34,443 nt of DNA, from the NCBI GenBank assembly GCA_035712245.1, contig DASTBC010000064.1, positions 1-34,443 of the forward strand, read 5' to 3'. Under the pieces are notes generated by a model, which worked only from the letters and a program-made list of their open reading frames with translations, was not told the origin of the DNA and ran no database searches. Made by a program: the position numbers and the translations under genes. The first letter of the stretch is position 1; each line of letters begins with the position of its first letter. This DNA comes from Candidatus Eisenbacteria bacterium. GTDB taxonomy: Bacteria > Eisenbacteria > RBG-16-71-46 > SZUA-252. Below are positions 6,406 through 19,807 of the stretch, one piece after another.

Positions 6406-7071
6406 TTAGTCTTCTCGGCTCTCGTTCCGGGCCCGGAGCTCTTCCCGCAGTTCCCGGACTTCTTCCTGCAAGCTCTGGACCTCGCGCTCCAGGTCATCCA
6501 GCTGGCGGCGGACCTCGTCCCGGCCCACCCGGATCCGCTCCATCCGCTCGGGCAGGTCGTCCAGTTCCCTCACGTGCCAGCGCGTCACGTCTCCGTAGCG
6601 CTGCGGGGGGCGGGTGCCGAGCGTGACCTCGAAGTTCTTGCGCTCGCCCGCACGGACGGCCGCGATCTGGATCGTCGCGCCCGGCTTCTTCTCGCGCATC
6701 TCGCGGATCAGCTCGGCGGAGTCCTCGATCTCCTCGCCGTCGAGACGCACGATCACGTCGCCGCGCTTCAGGCCGGCTTTCTCGGCCGGGCTCTCATCCT
6801 CCACGCGGTTCACGAGGGCTCCCTCGGTGCTCGGGAGATCCCGGGCCTGCTTCAGCTCGGGGTCGATGTCCTGGACACGGACGCCGAGATAGCCCCCCTG
6901 GACCTGGGCTTCCTCACCGCTGTGGCCGCGATCGACGCGGACGCGCGGCGGCGTCGAGTGAGCGTCGTCCTCCTCGTGTGGGTGGGCCACCGCGGGCGCC
7001 GCCGAGAGCGCCAGGCACAGGGACCCTGCCGCCAGACCCAGCAGGGGCCAGCGGGCGACCTTCGTGTTCAT
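6406..7071 (-). CDS. Secreted PDZ-domain protein with C-terminal coiled coil
   Basis: 221 aa. The start at 7071 is set by an excellent AAGGAGG six bases upstream. Residues 1-29 are a signal peptide ending in PAVA. After a His/Glu/Asp-rich linker, a single PDZ domain spans about 60-145: GGYLGVRVQDI (carboxylate-binding loop region), ESPAEKAGLKRGDVIVRLDGEEI, and the later strand GATIQIAAVRAGE. Residues about 165-215 are heptad-rich (RRQLDDLEREVQSLQEEVRELREEL), a coiled coil likely to make it an oligomer. No protease domain is attached, unlike DegP/HtrA, so it is probably a periplasmic adaptor or chaperone. It has a 178-bp upstream gap from the beta-helix gene, so it may have its own promoter or belong to the end of that operon. 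Confidence 0.88.
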   Translation of the reverse strand: MNTKVARWPLLGLAAGSLCLALSAAPAVAHPHEEDDAHSTPPRVRVDRGHSGEEAQVQGGYLGVRVQDIDPELKQARDLPSTEGALVNRVEDESPAEKAGLKRGDVIVRLDGEEIEDSAELIREMREKKPGATIQIAAVRAGERKNFEVTLGTRPPQRYGDVTRWHVRELDDLPERMERIRVGRDEVRRQLDDLEREVQSLQEEVRELREELRARNESRED

Positions 7072-7249: not shown

Positions 7250-8560
7250 TTACTTCGAGGGGACCATCTTGAAGCTGGCGCACTTCTTCGGGAGCGCGCC
7301 GATCGGGCCGCAGCTCGCGAGGACCGCGGGGGAGAGGTCCCGGAGGTAGAAGTCCCCCTTCGCTTCGTCGCAGAACAGAGGATCGCCGACGAGGGTGTCC
7401 GCGGACGGCAGGCTCGCCAGCGCCGCCCCGCTCGGATCGTGAACCAGGTTGCACTCGAAGTGCGGCGTGGACTGCTGGATTCCCACGAACGTCCTCTGCT
7501 GGGGCGCCATGACGAAGATGTTCTTCACGATCTCGGGCGAGACCCGTTCCGCGGCCCAGATGGTGCCACCGCCCTCGGCGGCGGCGTTCCGGTAGAAGGT
7601 GTTGCTCTGGATGGTGGGATTCACGCCCGCGGGACCTCTTCCGACGATCGTCATCGCCGCTCCCGCGGCGCCCTTCGCGCGGTTCAGATCGAACACGCAG
7701 AGTCCCGCGGTCAACGTCGCCTGATCGACCTGGACGGCCCCGCCCGTGGAGGCTTCGTTCTCGGTGAACCGGCTGCGGGAGAGCGTCACGCGCGATCCGC
7801 GCACGACCGCGACGGCGCCCCCCGCGAGCTTGGCCGTGTTCTTCTCGAACCAGCCCTCGAGGACGAGCGCCTCGGACGAATCGGCGAGGATCGCGCCGCC
7901 GTTCGCTCCGTCCGCGTGATTTCCTTCGAAGTTGCACCCGCGGATCGGGAAGAGGATCCGCGAGGAGACGAGCGCGATCGCGCCGCCCGAGTTCCCGCGG
8001 TTCCTCAGGAATTCGCACGAGCGGATGAGACCCGTGGACGAGGTCATCGTGATGGCGCTCCCCTGGTTCTCGATGAACCGGCAGTCGCGCACGTCCACGT
8101 TCTCCGACTGCCAGATCGAGATCGCGCTCTCCCAGTTCTTCTCGAGGATGTTTCCCGCCACGAGGAAGCCCGAGGAGCGGACGATGTGGATGCCGCCTCC
8201 CGAATTGGATCGCCCGCGGCGAATCGTGAATCCGACGATGCCGCCGCCCGAGACGCCCTCCACCGAGAGAACACGCGCGGCGTCGCCGCCGTCGAGGATC
8301 GTCGTGTCCGGGCCTTGAGCGCCGAAGAGGAGGACCTTCTTCTTGATCGTGAATGGGCCCGTGTAGGTCCCGGGAGACACGAAGATCGTGTCGCCGGCCG
8401 AGGCCGCGTCGATTCCGGCCTGGATCGTGCGGTGCGTGCGCGGAACGTGGACGGCCGCATCGGCGGGCGTGGCCGCCGAGAGGAGGACCGTGACCGCGAG
8501 CATCCCCGCGAGCGCCAGGCATCCTGCCGTCGTGAGGATCGCGGGGCGATCAGCTCGCAA
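7250..8560 (-). CDS. Secreted right-handed parallel beta-helix protein (pectin-lyase-like fold)
   Basis: 436 aa from a TTG at 8560, preceded by AGGAGG six bases upstream and overlapping the preceding M16 gene by 11 bp. Residues about 8-35 form a signal peptide. The mature chain opens with HVPRTHRTIQAGIDAASAGD and then IFVSPGTYTG, the typical start of NosD/DUF1565-type beta-helices. It continues with many 20-25-residue coils rich in Asn, Gly, Val and Ile (for example GNILEKNWESAISIW, NVDVRDCRFIENQGSAITM, CNFEGNHADGANGGAIL). No catalytic residues of polysaccharide lyases are recognisable, so binding to a polysaccharide or surface is as likely as catalysis. It is the last gene of the methyltransferase-M16-M16 operon. 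Confidence 0.85.
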   Translation of the reverse strand: MRADRPAILTTAGCLALAGMLAVTVLLSAATPADAAVHVPRTHRTIQAGIDAASAGDTIFVSPGTYTGPFTIKKKVLLFGAQGPDTTILDGGDAARVLSVEGVSGGGIVGFTIRRGRSNSGGGIHIVRSSGFLVAGNILEKNWESAISIWQSENVDVRDCRFIENQGSAITMTSSTGLIRSCEFLRNRGNSGGAIALVSSRILFPIRGCNFEGNHADGANGGAILADSSEALVLEGWFEKNTAKLAGGAVAVVRGSRVTLSRSRFTENEASTGGAVQVDQATLTAGLCVFDLNRAKGAAGAAMTIVGRGPAGVNPTIQSNTFYRNAAAEGGGTIWAAERVSPEIVKNIFVMAPQQRTFVGIQQSTPHFECNLVHDPSGAALASLPSADTLVGDPLFCDEAKGDFYLRDLSPAVLASCGPIGALPKKCASFKMVPSK

Positions 8561-9857
8561 CGGCGCCCTCCTCGACGGGTCCCGCGGTGACCAGCGCGTA
8601 CGCCTCGGTGCGCAGGAACTTCCGCGCGGCCTGGTGCGCCTGATCCCGTGTGACGCCGCGGATGATCGAGAGGTAGCGCTCGATGTAGTCGAGCCCGAGT
8701 CCGTAGAGCTCGGCCGTGAGGAGCTGTCCCGCGACGCCGGCATTCGTCTCGAGCCGGACGGGGAAGACGCCCGTGAGATAGCCCTTCGCCTCTTCCATCT
8801 CCTGCTCCGTCGGTCCGTCCCGGTGGAGCTTCGAGATCTCCTCCAGGATCGCGGCGGTCGCGCGTCCCGCGTTGGCCGGGTTCGTCCCCGCGCGGATCTG
8901 GATCGGTCCCGCGCCGATCCCCGACATCAGGCCGGAGTAGACGCCGTAGACGAGCCCTTCGCGGTCGCGAAGGCTGTCCATGAGCCGGCTGGAGAGCGAC
9001 GCGCCGCCGAGCACGTAGTTCATCATCATGGCGGCGTAGAAGTCGGGATCGGTGCGGGCCACGCCGGGGAGCGCGACGACGACATCGGTCTGCGACTTTC
9101 CGGGGCGCGGCACCGCCATCGTGCGCGGCGCCTTGGGCGCGGGCACGCCGGGAACGCGGAAGGGCGGCGCGTCCTTCGCGCGCTCCCACGACCCGAACGC
9201 CGCCTCGACGAGCTCCGATGCCCGGGCCGCCGTCACGTCTCCCACGAGCACGAGCAGCGTCCGCTCGGGGCCGTAGTGGCGCGCGTGGAACCCGGCGAGG
9301 TCGTCGCGCGTGATCGCGAGGAGCGAGGACTCCGTTCCCGCGGGCGGATGGTGATACGGATGCTCCGAGGGATAGAGGAGCTCGTTCGCGCGCCGGGCCG
9401 CGACGCTGGACGTGTTGTTCTCCGCGATCCGGTACTCGTTCACGAGCTCGCCCCGGATCTGCTCGATCGGCTCGGGCGGGAACACGGGATTGCGGAGCGC
9501 GTCCGCGAGCGCGGCGAGCACTTCCTCCAGGTCTCCGGACAGCATGTTCCCGTGGAACGAGACGGTCTCGGAGCCTCCCTCGAATCGGAGGGACGCGCCC
9601 AGGCTCTCGACGGCCGAGGCCTGCTCGAACGCGGTTCGCGTGGCGGTGCCCTGGTCGAGCATGGCCGCGACGAACGCGCCGAGCCCGCTCTTCCCGGGCG
9701 GATCGAAGAGCGCGCCGGCCTTCACGAGTCCCTGGAGCGCGATGGACGGGTTCGCGTGGTTCTCGCGAACGATCAGGACCAGGCCGTTCGGAAGGACCAC
9801 CCGGCTGGTCTCGACGGTCACGGCCACGGCGGTCTCGACGATCGGATCGGGCGTCAT
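8550..9857 (-). CDS. M16 (insulinase/pitrilysin) family protein, non-catalytic subunit
   Basis: 435 aa. It has the two-domain M16B layout, starting with VVLPNGLVLIVREN. Where the zinc motif HxxEH should lie it reads GLGAFVAAMLDQGT, so the metal ligands are missing. It keeps the second-domain segment SLRDREGLVYGVYSG, which in M16B pairs supplies the substrate-binding Arg/Tyr. The upstream gene has the complementary pattern, an intact zinc site. Together they look like a heterodimer of the kind described for bacterial M16B pairs. Start ATG at 9857 overlaps the partner's stop (ATGA). No signal peptide is evident, so the pair is probably cytoplasmic or exported by an unrecognised route. It probably degrades peptides. 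Confidence 0.9.
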   Translation of the reverse strand: MTPDPIVETAVAVTVETSRVVLPNGLVLIVRENHANPSIALQGLVKAGALFDPPGKSGLGAFVAAMLDQGTATRTAFEQASAVESLGASLRFEGGSETVSFHGNMLSGDLEEVLAALADALRNPVFPPEPIEQIRGELVNEYRIAENNTSSVAARRANELLYPSEHPYHHPPAGTESSLLAITRDDLAGFHARHYGPERTLLVLVGDVTAARASELVEAAFGSWERAKDAPPFRVPGVPAPKAPRTMAVPRPGKSQTDVVVALPGVARTDPDFYAAMMMNYVLGGASLSSRLMDSLRDREGLVYGVYSGLMSGIGAGPIQIRAGTNPANAGRATAAILEEISKLHRDGPTEQEMEEAKGYLTGVFPVRLETNAGVAGQLLTAELYGLGLDYIERYLSIIRGVTRDQAHQAARKFLRTEAYALVTAGPVEEGAVAS

Positions 9858-11125
9858 GGGGCCTCCCCGGGAACGGGATCGTAGTGCCCGACGGTGCGCG
9901 TCTCCTCGGTAAGGTACTCGCGCGCCACGCGTTGCACTTCATCCGTTCCCACGGCCCGGACGTGGTCGAGGTAGGTTTCCAGGTATCGGTAGGTGGCCAC
10001 CGTCTCGAAGTACCCCAGTTGCTGCGCCAGGCTCCGGATCGAGTCCTTCGCGTACACGAACGACGCCTCCACCTGGCGCTTCGCCCGGCTCATCTCGGCG
10101 TCGGTGGCGGGCTCCCGCTGGAGCCGCTCCACCTCGCGATAGAGTCCCTGCTCCACCTGATCGAGCGTCGCGCCCGGCGCCACCGTGGCGCGCGCGATGA
10201 GGAGGAACGGGTCGCGGGCCGTCTCGTTCCCGGCGTCGACCTCGGTCGCGAGCTTCCCCTCGACCAGGGCGCGGTAGAGCCGGGACGTGCGGCCGTGTCC
10301 CAGGATCATGCTGAGGACGTCGAGCGCGTAGTTGTCCGGGTGCACGAGCGCGGGATTGCGCCAGGACACCATGAGGTAGCGCGTATCGCCCGATTTCCGG
10401 AGCTTGAACCGGCGCTCGCCGCGCTGCGGCGGCTCCACGATGCGCATGGGCGGGGGCTCGGGCCCTTTCGGGATCCCGCCGAAGGACCGCTCCACCAGAT
10501 CGAGCGCCCGGTCCGCCGGAACGTCGCCCACCACGACCACCGTGGCGTTGTTCGGCACGTAGTGGGTGCGGTAGTAGTCGCGGATCTCCTCGGTCGTGAT
10601 CTGCTCCACGTCCGTGCGCCAGCCGATCGTCGGCCAGTGGTAGGGGTGTGCCTGGAAGGCCTGCGCGAAGGTCTCCTGGTAGAGCGCGCGGTGCGGATTG
10701 TCCTCGTTCCGCTCGAGCTCGGAACGGACCACCGTCATCTCGAGGCGGTGCTCCTCCTCGGGGATCGACGCGTTCACCATCCGGTCCGCCTCGATGTCCA
10801 TCGCGATCTCGAGGCGATCCTTCGCGAGCACTTCGTAGTAGCAGGTGTAGTCGAGCGAGGTCCCCGCGTTGAAGGAGGCGCCGTGTCTTTGAAGCGTGCG
10901 GGCGATCTCGCCCTTCCCGTAGCGCGGCGTGCCCTTGAACATCATGTGCTCGAGGAGGTGCGAGATGCCCGTGATCCCCGCGTTCTCGTTTCGCGAGCCC
11001 ACCTTGTACCAGACCATGAAGGAGACGACCGGGGCGGTGTGGACCGGCTGGACGAGAACCGTGAGGCCGTTCGAGAGCTTCGTTTCCCGAACGGGAGAAG
11101 CGAATGCCGTGAGCGTGTCGGTCAT
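9854..11125 (-). CDS. M16 zinc metallopeptidase, catalytic subunit
   Basis: 423 aa. The inverted zinc motif HxxEH is intact at His56-His60 (SHLLEHMMFKGT), and the third ligand fits Glu136 (VVRSELE), 76 residues after His60 as usual in the family. Start ATG at 11125 was chosen because it overlaps the methyltransferase stop as ATGA and has AGGAA upstream. A longer in-frame reading to 11179 would run into that gene. The second domain lacks the Arg-Glu-Gly-Leu-x-Tyr segment found in the neighbouring subunit, supporting a division of labour between the two proteins. Homologues include mitochondrial processing peptidase beta and PqqF/YmxG-type enzymes. It clears peptides; the physiological substrate is unknown. 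Confidence 0.93.
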   Translation of the reverse strand: MTDTLTAFASPVRETKLSNGLTVLVQPVHTAPVVSFMVWYKVGSRNENAGITGISHLLEHMMFKGTPRYGKGEIARTLQRHGASFNAGTSLDYTCYYEVLAKDRLEIAMDIEADRMVNASIPEEEHRLEMTVVRSELERNEDNPHRALYQETFAQAFQAHPYHWPTIGWRTDVEQITTEEIRDYYRTHYVPNNATVVVVGDVPADRALDLVERSFGGIPKGPEPPPMRIVEPPQRGERRFKLRKSGDTRYLMVSWRNPALVHPDNYALDVLSMILGHGRTSRLYRALVEGKLATEVDAGNETARDPFLLIARATVAPGATLDQVEQGLYREVERLQREPATDAEMSRAKRQVEASFVYAKDSIRSLAQQLGYFETVATYRYLETYLDHVRAVGTDEVQRVAREYLTEETRTVGHYDPVPGEAP

Positions 11126-12702
11126 GGGATCGATTCCTGTGGTGATGCGGATGGGGTGCGCTCCAGTACCGCGACGCATTCGATGTGGGACGTGTGCGGA
11201 AACATGTCCACGGCCCGGACCCAGAGCGGACGGTAGCGGCGCTCGCAGAGGAGCGCCAGATCGCGGCCGAGCGTGCTGGGATTGCAGGAGACATAGACGA
11301 GGCGCGGCGCGCCGAGATGGATGAGCCGGCTCACGACGCCGGGATGGAGCCCCGCGCGCGGCGGATCGACGAGCACGGCATCGATGTCGTGGAGGGCGCC
11401 CCCGCCGGCGTCGGCGCGGAGGACGCCGGTCCCGGGGCGCATGGAGCCGCCGGGGGCTGGCGCGCGGCTCGTGCCCCGGCCTCCCCCCTGGGGCGTTCCG
11501 AGCCCGAACCGATCGCGCAGGATCTCCATCGCCTCCCCCGTCCAGAATCGCGCGTTGGCGATCCCGTTTCGCTTCGCGTTCCGCTCGGCGTCCCGTACGG
11601 CGACGTCCGAGGACTCGATCCCGATCGCCTCACGGGCGTGCTTCGCGATCGGCAGCGTGAAGGTTCCCGTGCCGGAGTACACGTCGAGCACGCGTTCCGC
11701 TCCCGTCAGCCCGAGCCCTTCGATCGCGACCTCGAGGAGCCGCTCCGCCTGTTCCGTGTTCGTCTGGAAGAAGGAGCTCGAGGAGATCTCGAACGTGAGC
11801 CCGCCCAGGGTCTCGAGGATCGTCGGGCTCCCCGCGAGAATCCTCTCTTCTTCACCCGTGGCGACCTGCGCGCGGCGCCGCGTGAGGTTCAGGAGAACGC
11901 TCCGGACCCGCGGAAACGCGCGGACGATCGCGGGCGCGATCCGCTCGAAGAACGGATGCGGCTCGGTCGCGACGAAGTTCACCATCACCTCGCCGGTGCG
12001 GATGCCCTCGCGAATGGCGAGATACCGGAGAAGTCCCTCATGGCGCCGCGTGTCGTACGCGGTGAGGCCCTCGCGGCGGGCGGCATCGCGCACGAACGCG
12101 ACGATGCGGCTCGAGACCGGGGTCGCGATGTGGCAGCGCATGAGGTCGAACGTGCGGTCGAAGAAGCCGCGCACGTGGAGCCCGAGCGCGAGCCGCCCCG
12201 AGGCGTCCTGCGCGAACGAGTACTCCATCTTGTTCCGGTAATGGAAGAGCCGCGGCGCGGGGATCGTCGGGCGCAAAGGGACCCGCAGCCCGCCGAGGTG
12301 CTCGAGCGCGGCCTCGACCTGCCGCTCCTTGTGGCGGATCTGCTCCTCGTAGGCGAGATCCTGCGTGCGGCACCCGCCGCAGACCGGCACGTGCTCGCAG
12401 CGGGGCTCGACGCGGGTGGCGGCCGGACGGAGCACGCGCAGCGCGCGGGCCTCCGCGTACCGGCGGTGCTTCCGGTAGACCGTCGCGGTCACGCGGTCCC
12501 CCGGGAGCGCGTTCTCCACGAAGACCACGAAGCCGTCGATCCGCGCGAGCGCCCGGCCGCCGAAGGCGAGGTCTAGGACCTCGATCTCCAGGGTGTCGCC
12601 GCGCCGGATGGGCGCCGAGCCGGAGGGGGCCGCGGCGTCCGGCGGGGCGGCGCCGGCGGTGCGGTCCGGCAGGGCTTCGGGGGCGCTCTCGAAGGCGGGC
12701 AT
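11122..12702 (-). CDS. RNA m5-uridine methyltransferase, TrmA/RumA family
   Basis: 526 aa from ATG 12702 (no good SD; a start up to 12816 cannot be excluded but would collide with the divergent sensor gene). Residues about 33-90 form a TRAM RNA-binding domain (GDTLEIEVLDLAFGGRALAR). An iron-sulfur site follows with Cys102-x5-Cys108-x2-Cys111 (CEHVPVCGGC). The SAM-binding segment is VLDVYSGTGTFTLPIAKHA, and the catalytic cysteine lies in YVSCNPSTLGRDL near the C-terminus. These fit RlmD/RlmC/TrmA enzymes that methylate C5 of uridine in 23S rRNA or tRNA; the exact nucleotide cannot be assigned. An insert of about 40 Gly/Arg/Pro-rich residues lies between the SAM motif and the DPPR segment. It heads an operon with the two M16 subunits and the beta-helix gene. 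Confidence 0.93.
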   Translation of the reverse strand: MPAFESAPEALPDRTAGAAPPDAAAPSGSAPIRRGDTLEIEVLDLAFGGRALARIDGFVVFVENALPGDRVTATVYRKHRRYAEARALRVLRPAATRVEPRCEHVPVCGGCRTQDLAYEEQIRHKERQVEAALEHLGGLRVPLRPTIPAPRLFHYRNKMEYSFAQDASGRLALGLHVRGFFDRTFDLMRCHIATPVSSRIVAFVRDAARREGLTAYDTRRHEGLLRYLAIREGIRTGEVMVNFVATEPHPFFERIAPAIVRAFPRVRSVLLNLTRRRAQVATGEEERILAGSPTILETLGGLTFEISSSSFFQTNTEQAERLLEVAIEGLGLTGAERVLDVYSGTGTFTLPIAKHAREAIGIESSDVAVRDAERNAKRNGIANARFWTGEAMEILRDRFGLGTPQGGGRGTSRAPAPGGSMRPGTGVLRADAGGGALHDIDAVLVDPPRAGLHPGVVSRLIHLGAPRLVYVSCNPSTLGRDLALLCERRYRPLWVRAVDMFPHTSHIECVAVLERTPSASPQESIP

Positions 12703-12814
12703 CCGCCGAGTGTACAACACGCTCCGACCCTCGAACGCGCTTGAGAACGGCCGGTTCTGGCCGATCTCGGAACCGGGGTTCCGGTCGCCATCGCGCTCCT
12801 TCGGGGAATGCGTC

Positions 12815-14677
12815 ATGTCCGTTTCGACGTCCTCTCGTCCGAGTCCTTCGCTGACCTGGTGGATCTTCGCGCTCGCGCTGGTTCCGATGCTCGGAGCCGT
12901 GGGGTGGGCGCTGCTCGCGCTCTCGCGCCATCCCGAGAACGCCTCCGACCGCGAGGCGGCGGCCGCGCTCCTCCGGGTCGCTCCCGCGGTGGAACAGGCG
13001 CTCGACGAGCAGGCGGAACAGCTCGCCCGCCTCGGCGCCGTGATCGCGCGCGATCCGAAGTTCTACGCGGTGCTCACGCTCCCGAGCGCGTCGCGCGCGA
13101 ATCCGGAGTACCGCGAGGCGCTGGACGCGGTGCTCCGGGACTTCCAGCGGGAGGCCGACGTGCCCGTGTTCGCGGTCACGAACCCGCGCGGGAAGCTCCT
13201 CGGCCGGGCCGCCGAGCCCGGTGTCGGCGCCGTCGATCCGAGCGAGGCGCCGTTCGTGCGCGCGGCGCTCCAGGGCAAGGTCGGATCGGGCTACCTGGTC
13301 GAGCGGGAGGGGATCTACCGCGTGTCGGCGGTGCCGATCTCCGCGGGCGGCGTTCTCGTCGGAACGCTCCTGCTCGGCAGGCAGGTGGACGGCGAGCTGG
13401 GGGGCAAGCTCAAGACCGCGACCGAGGCCGACCTCACGCTCACGATCGGGCGCGACATCGCCGCGACCACGCTCGTCCCCTCGCCGCTTCGCAAGGCGCT
13501 GGCCCAGCGTCTCTCCGAGCCCACGTGGGGCGTGGCGAAGGACGCGGACGCCCCGGTCGTCTCCGCCGGCGGCAGGCGATATCTCGCGGTGAGGCGCGAG
13601 ATCCAGGGCCCCGCGGTCGGGGGCCGGAACCTGGGATACGTGCTCACCCGCGCCATTGGATCCGACGCCTCTCCGCTCGCCAAGCTCGAAGCCGATCTCG
13701 TGCGCGCCGCCGGCGTGGGGGTGGCGCTCGCGCTCGTCTGCGGAGGGGTCGTGGCCCTCGCGGTGCGCCGGCAGCGCCGTGCCCAGGAGCGCGCGCACGC
13801 GGAGGAGATCGGTGTGTGGTCGGAGAGGGAGCGCGCGCGAACCGCGCTTCTCGCCTCGGTGGGACGGCGCGTGCTCGACCCCGCCGAGACCGTGTACACG
13901 ATCACGGACCTCGTGGCGGACGGCGCGCTCGGGGATCTCTCCAGTCCGCAGCGCGAAGGACTTCTCGCCATCCGCCGGGCCTCGCGAGGGCTGACGCGCC
14001 TGGGCCAGGATCTCTCCACGGTGGCCTTGCTCGGGCGAGGAGACCAGGCCCTCTCACCCGCGTCGGTCGATATCGGAAACCTGATGGAGCAGGCCGCGAC
14101 GATGCTGATCCCGGTCGCGTCCGAGCGCCGGCAGATGGTCGAGCTCTCGGTGGAGCCCGGCCTGATCCACCCGCACGCCGACCCGCGCCTTCTCGCCCGC
14201 GCCGTCGAGGCGCTCGCGCTCGATCTCGTGGAGCGCGCTCCTGGCGCCACCAAGGTCGTGCTCGAGGCTCGCCGGACTTCCTCCGGAGTCGAGATCCTCA
14301 TCGCCGGTGCCCGGCCGGAGCAGGGGGACGGTGCGGCAGCCGGCTCCCCGGATGGGGACTCCCCGGGTGGAACGGCATCGGTCGCGTCCACGATGGCCGG
14401 TCTCGTGGCCGCCGGGCACGGGGGAGCGTTCGAGGTCCACCTGGGAGAGGGGCTCGCGTACCGGGTCTGGATCCCCGTACCGGCCGCGTTCGAGACGCGC
14501 CAAGCGATGCCGGCTCCTCCGGCGCACCCGTCCGTAACCCCTGTGGCACCCACTCCACTGGCCGTGCCCGCTGCCGAATCCGCAGCGCCCGCCGCACCCG
14601 CAGCGCCCGCCGCACCCGCAGCGCCCGCCGCACCCGATACCACCGACCTACCCCCTGATCCGGCTCGGGCCGCCTAG
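12815..14677 (+). CDS. Membrane sensor resembling a histidine kinase without the phospho-accepting histidine
   Basis: 620 aa; start ATG 12815 has GGGGAA upstream. Two membrane helices (about 14-36 and 295-317) flank a 258-residue periplasmic sensor region. Its CACHE-like strands read ADVPVFAVTNPRGKLLGRA and GIYRVSAVPISAGGVLVGTLLLG. Residues 340-405 align in pattern with a HisKA helix pair, but the expected S-H-E-L-x-x-P reads G-R-R-V-L-D-P, with Arg351 where His should be. The following ATPase-like region (415-555) lacks an evident N-box Asn and the glycine-rich ATP loops, ending in HGGAFEVHLGEGLAYRVWIPV. It is probably a pseudokinase acting through binding, not phosphotransfer. The C-terminus is Pro/Ala-rich with repeats. 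No response regulator is adjacent. Confidence 0.8.
   Translation: MSVSTSSRPSPSLTWWIFALALVPMLGAVGWALLALSRHPENASDREAAAALLRVAPAVEQALDEQAEQLARLGAVIARDPKFYAVLTLPSASRANPEYREALDAVLRDFQREADVPVFAVTNPRGKLLGRAAEPGVGAVDPSEAPFVRAALQGKVGSGYLVEREGIYRVSAVPISAGGVLVGTLLLGRQVDGELGGKLKTATEADLTLTIGRDIAATTLVPSPLRKALAQRLSEPTWGVAKDADAPVVSAGGRRYLAVRREIQGPAVGGRNLGYVLTRAIGSDASPLAKLEADLVRAAGVGVALALVCGGVVALAVRRQRRAQERAHAEEIGVWSERERARTALLASVGRRVLDPAETVYTITDLVADGALGDLSSPQREGLLAIRRASRGLTRLGQDLSTVALLGRGDQALSPASVDIGNLMEQAATMLIPVASERRQMVELSVEPGLIHPHADPRLLARAVEALALDLVERAPGATKVVLEARRTSSGVEILIAGARPEQGDGAAAGSPDGDSPGGTASVASTMAGLVAAGHGGAFEVHLGEGLAYRVWIPVPAAFETRQAMPAPPAHPSVTPVAPTPLAVPAAESAAPAAPAAPAAPAAPAAPDTTDLPPDPARAA
14582..14635 (+). 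repeat. Three 18-bp tandem repeats encoding Pro-Ala linker
   Basis: GCAGCGCCCGCCGCACCC is present three times in perfect tandem and encodes (AAP)n near the C-terminus of the sensor protein. Such identical copies are prone to length variation by slippage; the polypeptide would be an extended, flexible tail. Confidence 0.9.
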
Positions 14678-14989
14678 ATCGGCTCGAGGAGACAAGCGCG
14701 CCCGACACTAGCAGTCAACATTTGATTACTTAGATAACTGCTTTAAACTCATTGGCTTGAGGTGTGGCGCCTAAAACGTCCAAATATGGCGACACTCTGA
14801 GCGCTTCACCCGCCTGTCGACCATCGCAAACCGCAACTCTCCAATTAATTGCTTGGCTTCAGCTTACATCGATCTTCATCGGGGCCATTGCAAGTGGCAC
14901 GACCGCTGCTCTAGCCAGTTCCCGTCAGCGCGCTCGTGAAGACGAGCAAAACGAAGTGAGAAACGAACTTCCAACCTGTGAGGTGAAAC
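14678..14989 (+). other. AT-rich intergenic stretch before the twin peptide genes
   Basis: No convincing protein is encoded in these 312 bases. From about 14710 to 14990 the base composition drops visibly, with runs such as TTTGATTACTTAGATAAC and CCAATTAATTGC, unlike any other part of the window. Possible elements: an inverted repeat AGCAGT/ACTGCT at 14710-14715 and 14737-14742; a sigma70-like pair TTGATT (14722-14727) and TAAACT (14744-14749) with a 16-bp spacer; a palindrome CAATTAATTG at 14842-14851; and the -24/-12-like site listed separately. It reads as a regulatory region or acquired DNA. A GTG-started frame from 14764 runs across both micro-genes but has no SD or recognisable domain and is not called. 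Confidence 0.6.
14895..14910 (+). promoter_or_regulatory. Possible sigma54-type (-24/-12) promoter
   Basis: TGGCACGACCGCTGCT matches the RpoN consensus TGGCAC-N5-TTGCW with one change in the -12 block. GG and GC are separated by exactly 10 bases, as required. Transcription would start near 14921, about 70 bases before the first micro-gene. Only a sequence match; no enhancer-binding protein gene is in the window. Confidence 0.35.
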
Positions 14990-15061
14990 ATGCTCGAACT
15001 CGCCCTGATCCTGATCGCGGTGTCCTTCGCTGGTGGCGGTGGTGGCAAGGCTGGCTGGTAA
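14990..15061 (+). CDS. 23-aa micro-protein 1, hydrophobic with FAGGGGGKAGW ending
   Basis: ATG at 14990 follows GAGGTGA (14980-14986) and an in-frame TGA at 14984, so the frame cannot be longer at the 5' end. The peptide has one acidic residue (Glu3), a hydrophobic stretch at residues 4-13 (LALILIAVSF), Ala14, five glycines, then Lys20-Ala-Gly-Trp23. The micro-gene at 15132 encodes the same last eleven residues with different synonymous codons, which argues strongly that the peptide is translated and selected. At 10-14 residues the hydrophobic part is short for a full membrane span. No leader with a cleavage motif is visible. I do not recognise the family; candidates are a signalling peptide, small membrane protein, toxin or leaderless bacteriocin. 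Confidence 0.8.
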   Translation: MLELALILIAVSFAGGGGGKAGW

Positions 15062-15114
15062 CGGACGAACGCAGTGGCAGTGCCGGTGAGACGAACCGAA
15101 CCCCGAACCAGACG

Positions 15115-15124
15115 AAGGAGGTGA
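15115..15124 (+). promoter_or_regulatory. Full-length Shine-Dalgarno for micro-protein 2
   Basis: AAGGAGGTGA is the exact complement of the ten bases near the 3' end of typical bacterial 16S rRNA and lies seven bases ahead of the ATG at 15132. Such a complete match suggests very efficient initiation. Confidence 0.85.
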
Positions 15125-15131
15125 ATCAAGA

Positions 15132-15200
15132 ATGGAAGCCATCGTCATCCTGATCGCGATCGCGTTCGCCGGAGGCGGCGGAGGAAAGGCCGGCTGGTAA
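15132..15200 (+). CDS. 22-aa micro-protein 2, paralogue of micro-protein 1
   Basis: ATG at 15132 sits behind a perfect AAGGAGGTGA. The peptide starts MEA, has a hydrophobic stretch at residues 4-13 (IVILIAIAFA), then five glycines and Lys19-Ala-Gly-Trp22, TAA stop. Compared with micro-protein 1, the eleven-residue ending FAGGGGGKAGW is unchanged while six of eleven codons differ silently and none differ in meaning. The shared ILIA core shows the hydrophobic part is also related. It lies 70 bases after the first copy and is followed by two hairpins (15217-15246, 15264-15299). Function unknown; high expression is expected from the ribosome site. The tandem arrangement suggests two subunits acting together or a duplicated signal. 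Confidence 0.85.
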   Translation: MEAIVILIAIAFAGGGGGKAGW

Positions 15201-15216
15201 GCAGGACCCGCAGCAA

Positions 15217-15246
15217 GTCCGCGGGAGCGGGCGAACCCCCGCGGAC
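15217..15246 (+). terminator. GC-rich hairpin downstream of the micro-genes
   Basis: GTCCGCGGG (15217-15225) and CCCGCGGAC (15238-15246) are exact complements around a 12-base loop. It begins 16 bases after the second micro-gene's stop. No T-run follows, so it may protect the 3' end of a short mRNA or assist termination together with the next hairpin. Confidence 0.5.
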
Positions 15247-15263
15247 CGAGCAGCAAGCGGATG

Positions 15264-15299
15264 GATGGGCCACCGAATGCACCCCCTTGGTGGCCCATC
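15264..15299 (+). terminator. Second perfect hairpin downstream of the micro-genes
   Basis: GATGGGCCACC (15264-15274) and GGTGGCCCATC (15289-15299) form an 11-bp perfect stem with a 14-base loop. It is followed by TGCGTTTCGG, a weak T tract. It most likely ends the micro-gene transcript. The rest of the gap to 15531 shows no gene, only a short GCCCC/GGGGC hairpin around 15334-15348 and a C-rich stretch. Confidence 0.55.
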
Positions 15300-15544
15300 T
15301 GCGTTTCGGACAACGGAGGGTCCGGTGCAGGGAGCCCCACGGTGGGGCGGCTAGCCGACGCGGGGGTGTCATCCGTCGCACGCTGTTCCGCCTCTCCCTG
15401 CACCTCCACTCCCCCTCGACATCACCCGCGGAGAACTCCTCCGCACTCCCGTCCTTCGTGCACGGCATCGCCCGTGATACCCTTCCGGTCTTCTCGCAGC
15501 CCGGATCGGGCTCGCTCCACCCACCCCTAGTAAGGAGGATCGGC

Positions 15545-16054
15545 ATGAAGACACTGCTCGCGCTCGCGGCGGCGCTCGCCTTTGCGTCCCCTGCGTTTGC
15601 CCAGGAGGGAACGACCTCGGCCCCCGCAACGACGCCGCCCCCGGCCACGGCCGACAAGCCGGCCGACAACATGGAGATGCTCCGGGACAAGCTGCGCGCC
15701 GACAAGAAGCTGATCGTCGCCGAGGCGATGAAGCTCACGGAGAAGGAAGGCGCCGCGTTCTGGCCGGTCTACGAGACCTACCAGAAGGAGCTCACCGCCC
15801 TGAACGACCGGACGATGAAGCTCATCAAGGACTACGCGACGAGCTACGGGGCGATGACCGATCCCGCCGCGAAGGGGATCATGGATTCGTTCCTCGCGAT
15901 CGAGAAGGATCGGATCCAGCTCATGACGAGCTACACGCCCAAGTTCCGGAAGGTGCTGCCCGAGGTGAAGGTCGCCCGCTACTACCAGGTCGAGAACAAG
16001 ATCCGCGCGGTGGTGAACTACGAGCTGGCGCAGGAGATTCCGCTGGCAAACTAG
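15545..16054 (+). CDS. Periplasmic helical protein (Spy/CpxP-like in outline)
   Basis: 169 aa; AAGGAGG (15532-15538) lies six bases ahead of the ATG. Residues 1-20 are a classic Sec signal with AFA-Q cleavage, followed by a Thr/Pro/Ala-rich linker to about residue 40. The remainder is almost entirely amphipathic helix, with LTEKEGAAFWPVYETYQKEL as the most characteristic segment. Similar L-T-x-E-E-A-x-x-F-W-P-x-Y proteins occur beside envelope stress regulators in several phyla, where they are thought to act as periplasmic chaperones or sensors; the assignment here is by resemblance only. It is transcribed alone and ends before a strong terminator. Confidence 0.8.
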   Translation: MKTLLALAAALAFASPAFAQEGTTSAPATTPPPATADKPADNMEMLRDKLRADKKLIVAEAMKLTEKEGAAFWPVYETYQKELTALNDRTMKLIKDYATSYGAMTDPAAKGIMDSFLAIEKDRIQLMTSYTPKFRKVLPEVKVARYYQVENKIRAVVNYELAQEIPLAN

Positions 16055-16112
16055 CGAGCCGCGACAGGCGGCCGGGCCGGATCGGCCGCCGCCACCAGGC
16101 CGCATCGCAAAC

Positions 16113-16163
16113 GACGAGGGCCGGCGCGCATCCATCGCGCGACCGGCCCTCGTCTCTTTTCTT
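16113..16163 (+). terminator. Strong rho-independent terminator
   Basis: GACGAGGGCCGG (16113-16124) and CCGGCCCTCGTC (16143-16154) form a 12-bp perfect stem, immediately followed by TCTTTTCTT. It lies between the convergent genes ending at 16054 and 16187 and is oriented for the plus-strand gene. Confidence 0.9.
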
Positions 16164-16186
16164 CGGCGCCGCCCGGCGCCGGGAGA

Positions 16187-16837
16187 TCAATCGCTTCCGA
16201 GCTTGTACGTGAGGCCCGCTGCGAACTCGCCCTGATCCAGATAGTCCGGATCGGACACCTGGTAGCAGTAGAACGGATCGCACCACACACCGCCGTAATC
16301 CTCATCGAGGTACGTCGGGTTGTACTTGCCCTGGATCTTGAGCCCGATCTTCTCGCTCGCCTCGATCTTCACGCCCGCGCCGATCGAGAACGAGAAGCGC
16401 GACTCGGTGTCGAAGTCGCCGGACGGATTGAAGAACGTCGCGCCGAGGCCGAGCAGGAAGTAGGGACGGGTCGTGCTGCCATAGCCGATCTTCTCGAAGA
16501 GGAAGTTGCCGTGGAGCTGGGCGACCTGGAGCTCAAAGGCCCTCTCGGCGCTCGGGTTGATGTTGTCGCCATTGATGCTGAGTTCGGTCTCTTGCTGCAT
16601 GTACGAAGCCTCGAACGTGAAACCGGGGCTCGCCGAGAAGCCGAGCTGGCCGCCCCAGGTGAGGCCGCCCTCGATCTTCACGTCGTCGAGATCCGCCTCG
16701 CCCAGATCGAGGCTTCCCGCGGTCGTGTAGCCGAACATCGGTGAGATGTAGATCTCGCGAGCCTCAGACCGCGAAGCCGCGCCCGCGAGCGCGAATGCGA
16801 GAGCGAAGATCGGGATCCAGGATTTTCTCGACCTCAT
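16187..16837 (-). CDS. Outer-membrane beta-barrel protein, paralogue of the 271-996 gene
   Basis: 216 aa; AAGGAA precedes the ATG. Residues 1-26 are a signal peptide (cleavage near SEA-RE). The remainder is an eight-strand-type barrel: alternating strands such as WGGQLGFSASPGFTFEASYM, PYFLLGLGATFFNPSGDFD and FSFSIGAGVKIEASEKIGLK. The last third contains a cysteine pair (WCDPFYC) in the loop before the final strands, at the same place as FCSSGGC in the first barrel. It begins 22 bp after the sulfatase stop, so the two are probably cotranscribed; the barrel may accompany the sulfatase's substrate uptake (inference). The C-terminus ends in GSD, not an aromatic residue, which is less typical for the barrel-assembly signal. 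Confidence 0.88.
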   Translation of the reverse strand: MRSRKSWIPIFALAFALAGAASRSEAREIYISPMFGYTTAGSLDLGEADLDDVKIEGGLTWGGQLGFSASPGFTFEASYMQQETELSINGDNINPSAERAFELQVAQLHGNFLFEKIGYGSTTRPYFLLGLGATFFNPSGDFDTESRFSFSIGAGVKIEASEKIGLKIQGKYNPTYLDEDYGGVWCDPFYCYQVSDPDYLDQGEFAAGLTYKLGSD

Positions 16838-16859
16838 GGTTCCGTTCCTTTCGTTCGGG

Positions 16860-19271
16860 TTAGGACGCCTGCGGCCTTTCGATCGTCACTTTCAAGATCT
16901 TTCCCGTGAATCGGTTGTCACCTTGCTTGTACTCCTCCGTCACCGGCGTCTCGTTGTCCATTCCGACGTCGACGCCCTCATCGGCGGAGTAGACGTACGG
17001 CATCGTCTTCGGAACGAGCGCCTCGGCCACCGGCTTCCCGTCCACGCTGAGGCGGCTCACTCCGCCGGAGCCCGGCTTGCCGCCTGCATAGGCGAAGTCG
17101 TACCGCACGGTGTGTTTCCCGGGCGCGAGCGCCGTGGGCGAGGACGCCGTGGTTCGTTCCAGGCCCCCGAAGTTGTAGACGTGGTGCACGCGTCCGCCCT
17201 TCATGTAGAGCGACCAGCCCCCGAACCGTCCTGCCTGGGCGATGATCACGCCGTTCGCGCCGCCCGCCGGAACTTCCACCTCCGCCGTGATCGAGTACGA
17301 GCGCCCCTTCACGTTGAGGAAGGCGTTCTCCGCGATCCCGTGCATCCCCTCGTACAGCGTGAGCGAGTTGCGCGGGCCCATGAGATCGGGCCGTCCCGCG
17401 ATCGCGGCGTCGAACCGTTCCGAGCGGCGGTCGTCGAGAGGGAAGACGTGGTTCCGGATCGCTTCCTTCTCGAACACTCCCTGGAGCTCCTTCAGCTTCT
17501 GCGGGTTCTTCGCCGCGAGATCGTTCGCCTGGCTGAAGTCCTCGTCCACGTGATAGAGCTCCCAGCGGTCCTCGGCAAAGCTCGGGAGCGGCACCATGAG
17601 CCACGGAATCGAGTGGCGCGTGGCCGCGACCCATCCCTCGTGATAGATGGCCCGGTTCCCGAACATCTCGAAGTACTGAGTCGTGCGGCGGTCCTTCGCC
17701 TTTGGATCGTCGAACGCGTACCGCATCGAGACGCCGTCCATGGGCCGCTGCTTCACGCCGTTGACGAAGGTCGGCTCCGGAAGCCCCGCCGCCTCGAGCG
17801 CGGTCGGCGCGACGTCGATCACGTGATGGAACTGGGACCGCACTTCGCCGTGAGCGTTCTGGATCCGCGCGGGCCAGTGGACCACCATCGGATTCCGGGT
17901 TCCGCCGAAGTGGGACGCGACCTGCTTCGTCCACTGGAAGGGCGTGTTCCCCGCGTGCGCCCAGCCGATCGAGTAGTGGGGGAACGTCATCGGGCCGCCC
18001 CACTCGTCGATGTGTCCGATCTGGGATGAGAGGTCGCTCACGATGCCGTTCAGCGCCAGCATCTCGTTGTACGAGCCCTCCGGCCCGCCCTCGGCGCTCG
18101 CGCCGTTGTCGCCCCAGATGTAGAAGAAGAGCGTGTCGTCGAGCTCGCCAATGTCCTCGAGCGCCTGGACGAGACGGCCCACCTCATGATCCGTGTGCTC
18201 CGCGAACCCGGCGAAGGTCTCCATCTGGCGCGTGAGGAGCCGCTTCTGATCGGGCGAGAGCGGATCCCACGCCGGGATCTCCGCCGGCCGGGCCGTGAGC
18301 TTCGTGTTCGGCGGCACGACGCCGAGCTGGATCTGGCGCGCGAGCGTCTCCTCGCGCAGCTTGTCCCAGCCCTGGTCGAACTTGCCCTTGTACTTGTCGA
18401 TCCATTCCTTCGGCACGTGGTGCGGCGCGTGGGTCGCGCCGGTGGCGAAGTAGATGTAGAAGGGTTTGTCCGGAGTGAGGGACTGCTGGAACCGGGTCCA
18501 CGCGATCGCCTGGTTCGTCATGTCGGTCGTGAAGTGGTAGTTCGGGTCCGCCGCGTGCTCCACGCGCGTCACGCCGTCGTAGATCGCCGGCGCCCACTGG
18601 TTCGTCTCCCCGCCGATGAATCCGTAGAACTTGTCGAAGCCGGAGCCCGTCGGCCAGCGATCGTACGGGCCCGACACCGACACCTCCCACGGCGCGGTCT
18701 CGTGGTACTTCCCGAACGCCGCGGTGCTGTAGCCGTTCATGCGGAGGATCTGCGCGAGCGGCGTGACGCTTTGCGGCCGCACCCCCGTGTTCCCGGGGAA
18801 GCCGGTCGCGAGCTCCATGATCGCGCCCGCGTTGTTCACGTGATGGTTTCGGCCCGTGAGGAGCGCGGTCCGCGTGGGGGAGCAGAGCGCCGTCGTATGG
18901 AAGCGGTTGAATCGCAGTCCGCGCGACGCGAGTCGCTCGAGGGTCGGCGTGTGGATCGGGCCGCCGAAGGCCGAGGACTGTCCAAACCCGGTGTCGTCGA
19001 TGAGCACGATGACGACGTTCGGCGCGCCCTGCGGCGCGTTCACCTCGAACCTGGCCGGTGCCTTCGCCTTCCTCGCGTCCATCTCGGCGATCGCGGGATA
19101 AGCCGGCTCCGCGATCGGAAGGACGGTGCGGTCCGGCTCGCCCGACGCGGCACGCTGCGCCGTGGAGCCGGCTCGGTGGCAGCCGGCGGCGAGGAGGACC
19201 AGACAGGCGAGCGTGCCGAGGCAACGGCTCAGGGGGCTGCGGGAAGACGCGACACTGCGAGCACGGCTCAA
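16860..19271 (-). CDS. Lipoprotein arylsulfatase (type I, formylglycine-dependent)
   Basis: 803 aa from a TTG at 19271 with AGGAGG five bases upstream; longer in-frame readings lack this. Residues 1-31 are a lipoprotein signal ending LLAAGC, so it is tethered to a membrane, probably facing the periplasm or surface. The metal site begins VVIVLIDDTGFG (Asp92/Asp93). The modification motif CSPTR (Cys130-Arg134, in LCSPTRTALLTGR) would be converted to formylglycine by a generating enzyme not in this window. The sequence around it strongly resembles mycobacterial AtsA/AtsD-type arylsulfatases of about 790 residues. The C-terminal 200 residues form a beta-rich, lectin-like module (SYSITAEVEVPAGGANGVII). 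It hydrolyses sulfate esters for sulfur or carbon scavenging; substrate unknown. Confidence 0.92.
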   Translation of the reverse strand: MSRARSVASSRSPLSRCLGTLACLVLLAAGCHRAGSTAQRAASGEPDRTVLPIAEPAYPAIAEMDARKAKAPARFEVNAPQGAPNVVIVLIDDTGFGQSSAFGGPIHTPTLERLASRGLRFNRFHTTALCSPTRTALLTGRNHHVNNAGAIMELATGFPGNTGVRPQSVTPLAQILRMNGYSTAAFGKYHETAPWEVSVSGPYDRWPTGSGFDKFYGFIGGETNQWAPAIYDGVTRVEHAADPNYHFTTDMTNQAIAWTRFQQSLTPDKPFYIYFATGATHAPHHVPKEWIDKYKGKFDQGWDKLREETLARQIQLGVVPPNTKLTARPAEIPAWDPLSPDQKRLLTRQMETFAGFAEHTDHEVGRLVQALEDIGELDDTLFFYIWGDNGASAEGGPEGSYNEMLALNGIVSDLSSQIGHIDEWGGPMTFPHYSIGWAHAGNTPFQWTKQVASHFGGTRNPMVVHWPARIQNAHGEVRSQFHHVIDVAPTALEAAGLPEPTFVNGVKQRPMDGVSMRYAFDDPKAKDRRTTQYFEMFGNRAIYHEGWVAATRHSIPWLMVPLPSFAEDRWELYHVDEDFSQANDLAAKNPQKLKELQGVFEKEAIRNHVFPLDDRRSERFDAAIAGRPDLMGPRNSLTLYEGMHGIAENAFLNVKGRSYSITAEVEVPAGGANGVIIAQAGRFGGWSLYMKGGRVHHVYNFGGLERTTASSPTALAPGKHTVRYDFAYAGGKPGSGGVSRLSVDGKPVAEALVPKTMPYVYSADEGVDVGMDNETPVTEEYKQGDNRFTGKILKVTIERPQAS

Positions 19272-19807
19272 GGAACCCTCCTGCGGATGTGCCCCACACA
19301 CGCAATAAAGCCGAGCGGGCCACGGGCCCGACCGGCTGGGGGGGACGCGCCTGCGCTGCTTCCTCGCATCACCAGGATGTCGAGTAAGGTGCGGAGTGTC
19401 CGCCATTTCGGGGCCCAGCGCAAGTGCTCCTCGCGACCAGGCCCAGGAGTATGGAGAGGGCGTCGCCGAGCCCGTTCGACCCCCGTCTCGGTGCGGGCGG
19501 TGCGGCGCGGACAGGTGACCACTCGCTCCGTCCACTCCGCGTGACCCAGCCCGCGCCGTGGCGTGCCTTCTGCCCGCCTTCGCCAGCGCACCGATCGGCC
19601 AGCGGCACGGGTGCAAGCTCAAGTGTTCTAGCGAAATGGCCGACCGCATCGAGCGCCGGCGCCCTCGACGGTCCACCGGAAAAGGTCCCGCCCGGACAGG
19701 CCGATAAAGCAATCGACCGTCCAGGGTACGCGCCTCCACGGGGAAGCGGGAGCGGGGTGTATGATCACGGTCGAGGATTCGTGACGTCGACCTCAGGGAG
19801 GGAACGG
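19272..19807. other. Divergent intergenic region between sulfatase and lon
   Basis: No protein with a plausible SD and composition was found in these 536 bases. A TATGAT hexamer at 19760-19765 lies 42 bp before the lon start and may be its -10 box, though no good -35 is visible at the right distance. CCGCCATTTCG near 19402 and CGAAATGGCCG near 19631 are approximate inverted copies of unknown meaning. Confidence 0.4.

Follow-up and report, generated by a model that had tools for sequence, protein, structure and literature searches.

A histidine-kinase-like membrane protein that has lost its catalytic motifs, beside tandem micropeptide genes in an Eisenbacteria genome

The window analyzed here, a stretch of 34,443 nucleotides (contig C64), belongs to a Candidatus Eisenbacteria genome (G000) of 3.54 Mb and 96.7% completeness. 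On its forward strand, at 12815-14677, lies a gene of 620 open codons with zero internal stops, encoding a histidine-kinase-fold pseudokinase of 620 amino acids (P0001). It is followed on the same strand by two micro-genes, one at 14990-15061 (MLELALILIAVSFAGGGGGKAGW) and one at 15132-15200 (MEAIVILIAIAFAGGGGGKAGW, with an AGGAGG ribosome-binding site), and the region is framed by two syntenic anchors. The left anchor is an ORF for a divergent RlmD/RumA-like RNA methyltransferase (11122-12816, reverse strand), whose true start is probably downstream. The right one is a Lon protease ORF (19424-22417, forward strand), with homology from about residue 121-129 and a true start that is probably near 19800; an assignment of this right-hand neighbor to PPDK was rejected, as the gene is Lon. 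A pair of M16 peptidases (8550-11179, reverse strand) also belongs to the conserved block, close to the peptide genes, and a role in peptide processing is conceivable. Three genes lie between the micro-genes and Lon, at 15545-19202, and encode a small protein that looks secreted, an outer-membrane barrel (OMP) and a sulfatase. They are absent from the other six family loci, where the Lon ORF starts no more than about 0.85 kb from the stop of the kinase gene.

All parts of the kinase-like protein are encoded on the forward strand. A first membrane helix (TM1, residues 14-36, 12854-12922; hydropathy peak at 17-35, helix 12-37 in the structure model) is followed by a dCache_3 extracytoplasmic sensor (residues 50-266, 12962-13612; Pfam PF14827, 1.7e-8), which at 34.8 bits is above the Pfam cut-off of 25.7, and by a second helix (TM2, residues 295-319, 13697-13771) placed by hydropathy (peak 299-317) and alignment. 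The alignment then defines a DHp-like two-helix region (residues 336-412, 13820-14050; helices 337-371 and 377-407 in the low-confidence model), where the codon at 13865-13867 puts Arg351 in the place of the phospho-accepting His. A degenerate CA (ATPase-fold) region, delimited by alignment and by Foldseek CA matches (residues 413-560, 14051-14494), has no N, G1, lid or G2 motifs: the place of the N-box reads ALALDLVERAPG (residues 466-477), that of G2 reads ASVASTMAGLVAAGHGG (residues 521-537), and G1 and the ATP lid are missing in the alignment with six syntenic orthologues. The sequence ends in an Ala/Pro-rich tail (residues 561-620, 14495-14674). The original prediction, made from the letters of the window, had proposed the order helix, CACHE-like sensor, helix, HisKA-like pair and ATPase-like fold, and hydropathy, Pfam dCache_3, the model and the alignment agree on it. 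The same alignment reproduces the predicted pairing of the phospho-accepting His with Arg351 and the lack of an N-box and G-loops.

Comparison by HMM and by structure, as had been suggested with that prediction, was carried out. Pfam HisKA and HATPase_c were unreported even at E-values up to 10, a null result to be read with the caveat that HMMER filters discard most weak matches, and still Foldseek matched the model to histidine kinase cytoplasmic structures, with ZraS (9jfj, 5.7e-7) as the best and DivL among them; the CA part alone matched PhoR (8h70) with a target TM-score of 0.77. The underlying AlphaFold2 model rested on two sequences and has a mean pLDDT of 46, with 67-80 reached only at about residues 420-500, and a model this poor gives no independent support to the fold of the sensor and stalk. 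Searched with phmmer against PDB sequences, the protein matched a histidine kinase (8u4x) at 2.5e-6 over residues 302-555 and DivL (4q20) at 0.0015.

A sequence search covering G000 and 38 relatives returned matches in 30 of the 39 genomes at E-values up to 0.001, many of which are other kinases. In six genomes (G001, G003, G004, G005, G006, and G007), the top match occupied the corresponding slot in the gene order, while in G002 it was found at a different locus, in 12 kb without any other homologue of the window. The protein is 45% identical to the orthologue of its congener G001 over residues 12-543. Intact H-, N, G1 and G2 boxes occur in four of the seven slot orthologues (G003, G004, G006, and G007), in the form SHEI[ILV]TP, an N-box, DTG or DSG, and GLGLS, and Pfam HAMP, HisKA and HATPase_c were all detected in the three of them that were scanned (G003, G007, and G004). 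At the position of the phospho-accepting His, these four have His, G001 and G005 have Glu, and G000 has Arg. The G001 protein combines the change to Glu with the loss of HAMP and a deleted ATP lid, but N-box, DTG and GLGLA are kept, and Pfam assigns HATPase_c at 1.5e-14 and HisKA at just 0.18. G005, from another genus, has kept a HAMP-like segment and has a reduced CA domain. Overall, a HAMP segment after TM2 is absent from the G000 and G001 proteins and present in G003, G004 and G007 (by Pfam) and in G005 and G006 (by alignment only), and the DHp proline (Pro356) is conserved in all seven orthologues, that of G000 included. As read from the aligned sequences, one slot thus holds a graded loss: His to Glu with the lid deleted (G001), His to Glu with the CA domain reduced (G005), and His to Arg with all boxes lost (G000).

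Since the slot orthologues with intact motifs anchor the alignment, the residue placement in the protein is settled, and an intact His elsewhere in it is ruled out. An assembly artefact is also unlikely, given that the congener G001 carries an independent non-His orthologue. In the kinase tree, G000, G001 and G005 cluster with support of 62/71, and the AU test on four neighbor proteins gave p=0.31; the loss of the His in G000/G001 and in G005 could represent one event or two.

Selection on each domain was assessed by counting changes under parsimony along the branch leading to G000, with G001 and one outgroup as references, and then again with a second, related outgroup; the counts were evaluated with one-sided Fisher tests. 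In the sensor, 34 of 158 second positions changed versus 44 of 106 third positions (p=4e-4), and 29/148 versus 56/120 with the other outgroup (p=2e-6). The DHp region behaved alike, with 13/58 second versus 18/34 third positions (p=0.003) and 11/51 versus 24/38 (p=8e-5), whereas no significant codon-position bias was found in the CA region with either outgroup (33/98 versus 31/69, p=0.10; 33/99 versus 34/85, p=0.22). Second positions also changed more in the CA region than in the sensor (p=0.04 and 0.02). Because divergence is high (near saturation, with third positions differing at about 0.5), the codon-position evidence is moderate, and genes may look constrained for some time after their function has been lost. 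Within these bounds, the sensor and DHp regions are probably under codon-level constraint and the CA region not measurably so, suggesting that the pseudokinase has been kept. This is consistent with functional importance of the sensor and the stalk, and with an ATPase fold that is a mere remnant.

The ancestry of the protein and its motif loss are established as above, together with a codon-level constraint on the sensor and DHp regions that is not measurable in the CA region. Our preferred reading, to which we give a probability of about 0.6, is that the protein is a binding-only membrane pseudokinase descended from a sensor histidine kinase in this slot. The starting point was a dCache_3-HAMP-HisKA-HATPase sensor histidine kinase in the same slot of the family ancestor. 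The G000 lineage has since lost, in the order that we infer, the HAMP segment, the phospho-accepting His, replaced by Arg351, and the boxes for ATP binding, while a membrane-bound sensor and a DHp-like stalk were kept. A ligand bound at the dCache domain would then rearrange a presumably dimeric stalk, whose action would be one of binding: it could dock a response regulator and keep hold of it, or form a pair with a putative partner kinase that is still active.

The main competitor, which we consider unlikely, holds that the gene is a dying relic of an ancestral kinase that is no longer needed, drifting with a frame that merely happens to be unbroken so far. The missing codon-position bias of the CA region on the G000 branch (p=0.10 and 0.22) speaks for such a relic, as do the long gene branch (0.95, versus 0.49 for G001) and the Ala/Pro repeat tail. 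However, drift would have to leave 620 codons open in G000, and ORFs of 612 and 598 amino acids persist in G001 and G005 after the loss of the His; moreover, the sensor still scores above the Pfam cut-off, and the bias between second and third positions in sensor and DHp is not what drift predicts.

In eight of the nine family genomes (all but G002), the two micro-genes downstream recur as a tandem pair. Each ORF is 18-26 residues long, has a ribosome-binding site and begins with a hydrophobic stretch. All 16 micro-ORFs of these eight genomes end in GKAGW-stop, although they were located by the GKAGW pattern and the shared ending is therefore partly due to the selection of the data. Among near-identical copies, 25 of 33 differences fall at third codon positions in five comparisons picked from twelve pairs, while the remaining pairs are less clear-cut (e.g., 9, 5 and 11 differences by codon position between two G004 copies). 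The concentration of differences at third codon positions in those five comparisons indicates that the micro-genes are coding, and we conclude that they are real. Streptococcal SHP pheromones, type I toxins and phenol-soluble modulins are peptides of about 20 residues with a hydrophobic or amphipathic first part and their own ribosome-binding site. The micro-genes resemble such peptides in size, hydrophobicity and ribosome-binding site, and they differ in the G[KR]AGW C-terminus, the tandem copies and a sigma-54-type box.

This -24/-12 box, TGGCACGACCGCTGCTC (GG-N10-GC; 14895-14911, forward strand), was recognized by alignment and from the sigma-54 promoter consensus, GG-N10-GC within TGGCAC-N5-YTGC. 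It falls in TGCAA[AG]TGGCACG.C..CTGCT, the longest conserved block upstream of the micro-genes, present in all seven regions that reach it (the contig of G008 stops short of it). A search of ten genomes with the exact 17-base degenerate form, which was derived from these same sites, gave one match per genome in the six of them that carry the micro-genes, with one-mismatch matches at control level. The RpoN domain PF04552 was found in all ten genomes searched, with two matches to the RpoN DNA-binding domain in G000 (C250 and C162) versus one in each of the nine others. Given that the box starts 217 bases past the kinase stop, the micro-genes appear to form a separate, predicted transcription unit. 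Upstream of the box, a palindrome like CTGTAAG-N7-CTTACAG was seen by eye in several genomes (in G005 just after the kinase), possibly an activator site.

Two conserved hairpins follow micro-gene 2 on the forward strand. The first (15217-15246) has the core GGGCGAAC[CT]CC in seven of eight family loci (not in G005), and the second (15264-15299), possibly a terminator, is paired in nearly all of the eight loci with few compensatory changes. RNAalifold on both gave 22 pairs, five of them with a compensatory change somewhere, and a small covariation term (-0.8). A consensus scan of 14600-15600 for intrinsic terminators returned no site, and the fold of the hairpin region is weakly better than that of shuffled sequences (z -1.9, 6/200 as good), so "terminator" is our reading of a conserved hairpin. 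No known RNA family of the Rfam type was found in 12000-17000 at E-values up to 1.

The ending of the micropeptides is not confined to this family. The pattern GGNAARGCNGGNTGGTRR was found in 20 of the 47 genomes of the class (all genomes of the phylum that are available), with two matches in total in the reversed control, and in 39 of 47 when second-place codons were relaxed (Lys, Arg and some others); since the reversed control of the relaxed pattern yields 0-6 matches per genome, single matches need context. Of 18 such places fetched, eight are hydrophobic micro-ORFs, four are lipoprotein-type ends, and six are unrelated or out of frame. In family f8, a micro-ORF upstream of an HD-domain gene is present in 18 of 20 genomes (the other two have no full-length match), 15 of the 18 ending in G[KR]AGW and the rest in TKAGW, GRASW and GKGGW. 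The order of genes in the f8 cluster is pfkB, a 272-aa protein, the single micropeptide gene, HD_5, purM, a sigma-54 activator, an oxidoreductase and lnt. The HD-upstream micro-ORF also occurs in f3 G010 (ending in GRAGW) and, without the motif, in f2 G009, and none accompanies the homologues examined in f1 (seven), f6 (two) and f11 (one). Single micropeptide genes were found in f7 (G014, G025, and G031), f4 (G011), f10 (G020) and f3 (G010), and f7 G014 also has three tandem micro-genes ending in GRAGW at about 6450-6760 (reverse strand) of locus L187, two of which encode the same peptide.

The same end is carried by a lipoprotein family with a lipobox in most reading frames shown and a domain ending in HFS[KRT]Y, for which Pfam gave no match on five members. 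Among 25 homologous places, one of which is cut, 23 of the 24 others end in G[KR]AGW and one in YRAGW, a count in which two rows are one protein. When 84,980 species genomes were scanned for AGGAGG with a micro-ORF ending in GKAGW, 33 stretches were obtained, nine of them in-frame hydrophobic micro-ORFs (eight labeled Eisenbacteria and one filed under Latescibacterota) and the others out of frame or not hydrophobic. An ssrA degradation tag is ruled out for GKAGW, as the tmRNA of the genome encodes ANNEFALAA. In the open-licence PMC literature, GKAGW was found solely in an enterocin, where the motif is internal, and nothing was found for Eisenbacteria with sigma-54, Eisenbacteria with small protein, or dCache with pseudokinase. 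By comparison of these endings, G[KR]AGW-stop is a shared C-terminus of Eisenbacteria micropeptides and of a lipoprotein family, and possibly a recognition tag.

The original prediction had also made the kinase-like protein a candidate receptor or regulator for the micro-genes and had noted that no response regulator is adjacent. The latter holds: no receiver domain was found in nine neighbors scanned, including the two M16 peptidases, the methyltransferase, the OMP, the sulfatase and Lon. The same nine include no peptide exporter; what lies nearby is the M16 peptidase pair and the dead kinase. As to the former, the adjacency stands and the role gains little. The kinase adjoins the micro-genes in all seven informative genomes of the nine in the family, the uninformative ones being G008 (contig ends before the kinase) and G002 (78% complete, neither found), and with the neighborhood conserved in seven genomes and no intact His elsewhere, neither of the results that could have refuted the prediction arose. 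Nevertheless, all seven also keep the methyltransferase, the M16 pair and Lon in position, and because the whole M16-to-Lon block is syntenic, adjacency is weak evidence of a functional link.

ZraS, the best fold match of the protein, has a sigma-54 activator as partner, which, together with the sigma-54-type box of the micro-genes, the RpoN domain in every genome searched and the adjacency in seven of seven, lends some appeal to a dedicated receptor or regulator of GKAGW micropeptides, in which the dCache domain would read the peptides or the protein would tune the sigma-54 activator of their promoter. We regard this as quite improbable: besides the synteny of the block and the promoter box that the micro-genes have to themselves, the peptides occur apart from the kinase. 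The f8 peptide gene lies between the 272-aa protein and the HD-domain protein, in the purM, sigma-54-activator and lnt cluster, and tblastn with the kinase gave nothing in nine f8 loci (up to 16 kb); in f7 G014 (13 kb), the three copies are flanked by genes for a VWA protein and for a class I tRNA synthetase, so that the check for kinase-free neighborhoods outside the family covers these nine f8 loci and one f7 locus. Conversely, kinase relatives from outside the family are not beside rlmD or lon in stretches of roughly 4 kb. Moreover, the peptides persist whether the kinase motifs are intact, partly eroded or gone, and as four genomes hold an intact-motif kinase in the same slot, the micro-genes do not require kinase inactivity. 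A wider scheme is more doubtful still, in which G[KR]AGW-COOH would be a phylum-specific C-terminal recognition tag on lipoproteins and on membrane-inserted micropeptides that display nothing but the tag, the twin micropeptides of this family would be made on demand from the sigma-54 promoter, and their state would be read by the neighboring dCache protein, a kinase first and a pseudokinase in this genus.

Returning to a binding-only pseudokinase, the protein can be set against known systems. An adjacent or fused response regulator is usual for active histidine kinases but not required, and orphan kinases exist. The protein lacks the His, the N/G1/F-lid/G2 boxes and the adjacent response regulator of an active HisKA-class kinase, and has what marks a histidine-kinase pseudokinase, namely homology over DHp and CA with the catalytic residues lost. 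A divergent nucleotide site that still gives the protein a chemistry is highly improbable: the CA-like fold, still recognizable, speaks for it, but the alignment lacks the N-box Asn, the G1 Asp, the lid and the G2 glycines. ZraS (9jfj), the class I histidine kinase that best matches the fold of the cytoplasmic part, is catalytically active and has a cognate response regulator, whereas no regulator lies among the nine neighbors scanned here.

DivL of Caulobacter crescentus is the closer parallel, a pseudo-histidine kinase which, according to two reports, acts in vivo without kinase activity (PMC4211667, PMC5361649). Both proteins have a histidine kinase fold with the phospho-acceptor His replaced and the DHp proline kept. 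However, DivL is described there as having Tyr at the His place and keeping the N, G1, F and G2 boxes, whereas the protein studied here carries Arg there and no longer has the N, G1 and G2 boxes or the lid; DivL also has PAS sensors and known partners, against a dCache_3 sensor predicted from sequence. In ChrS of Corynebacterium glutamicum, a CA-frameshift pseudokinase, the CA domain is likewise destroyed and the rest of the protein still matters, and a heterodimer with another kinase has been proposed (PMC9491836); that frameshift evolved in the laboratory and the His is present, while here the decay is natural and the His is lost.

The kind of protein is therefore already known, given that DivL keeps all boxes bar the His and that about 1% of histidine kinases are substituted at this position, with Arg among the replacements, as stated in PMC5361649, which also counts few bacterial histidine-kinase pseudokinases as studied; the complete loss within a graded orthologous series is a variant of it. 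The recurrence of the G[KR]AGW C-terminus across the phylum is unexpected and the more novel part: micropeptides and a lipoprotein family with the same C-terminus suggest a recognition system, undescribed in the literature searched, in a poorly known phylum. For the kinase family, one gene slot provides a natural series, from intact motifs, through loss of the His with part of the ATP site kept, to loss of everything, and this orthologue series makes it testable what remains of a kinase once catalysis goes.
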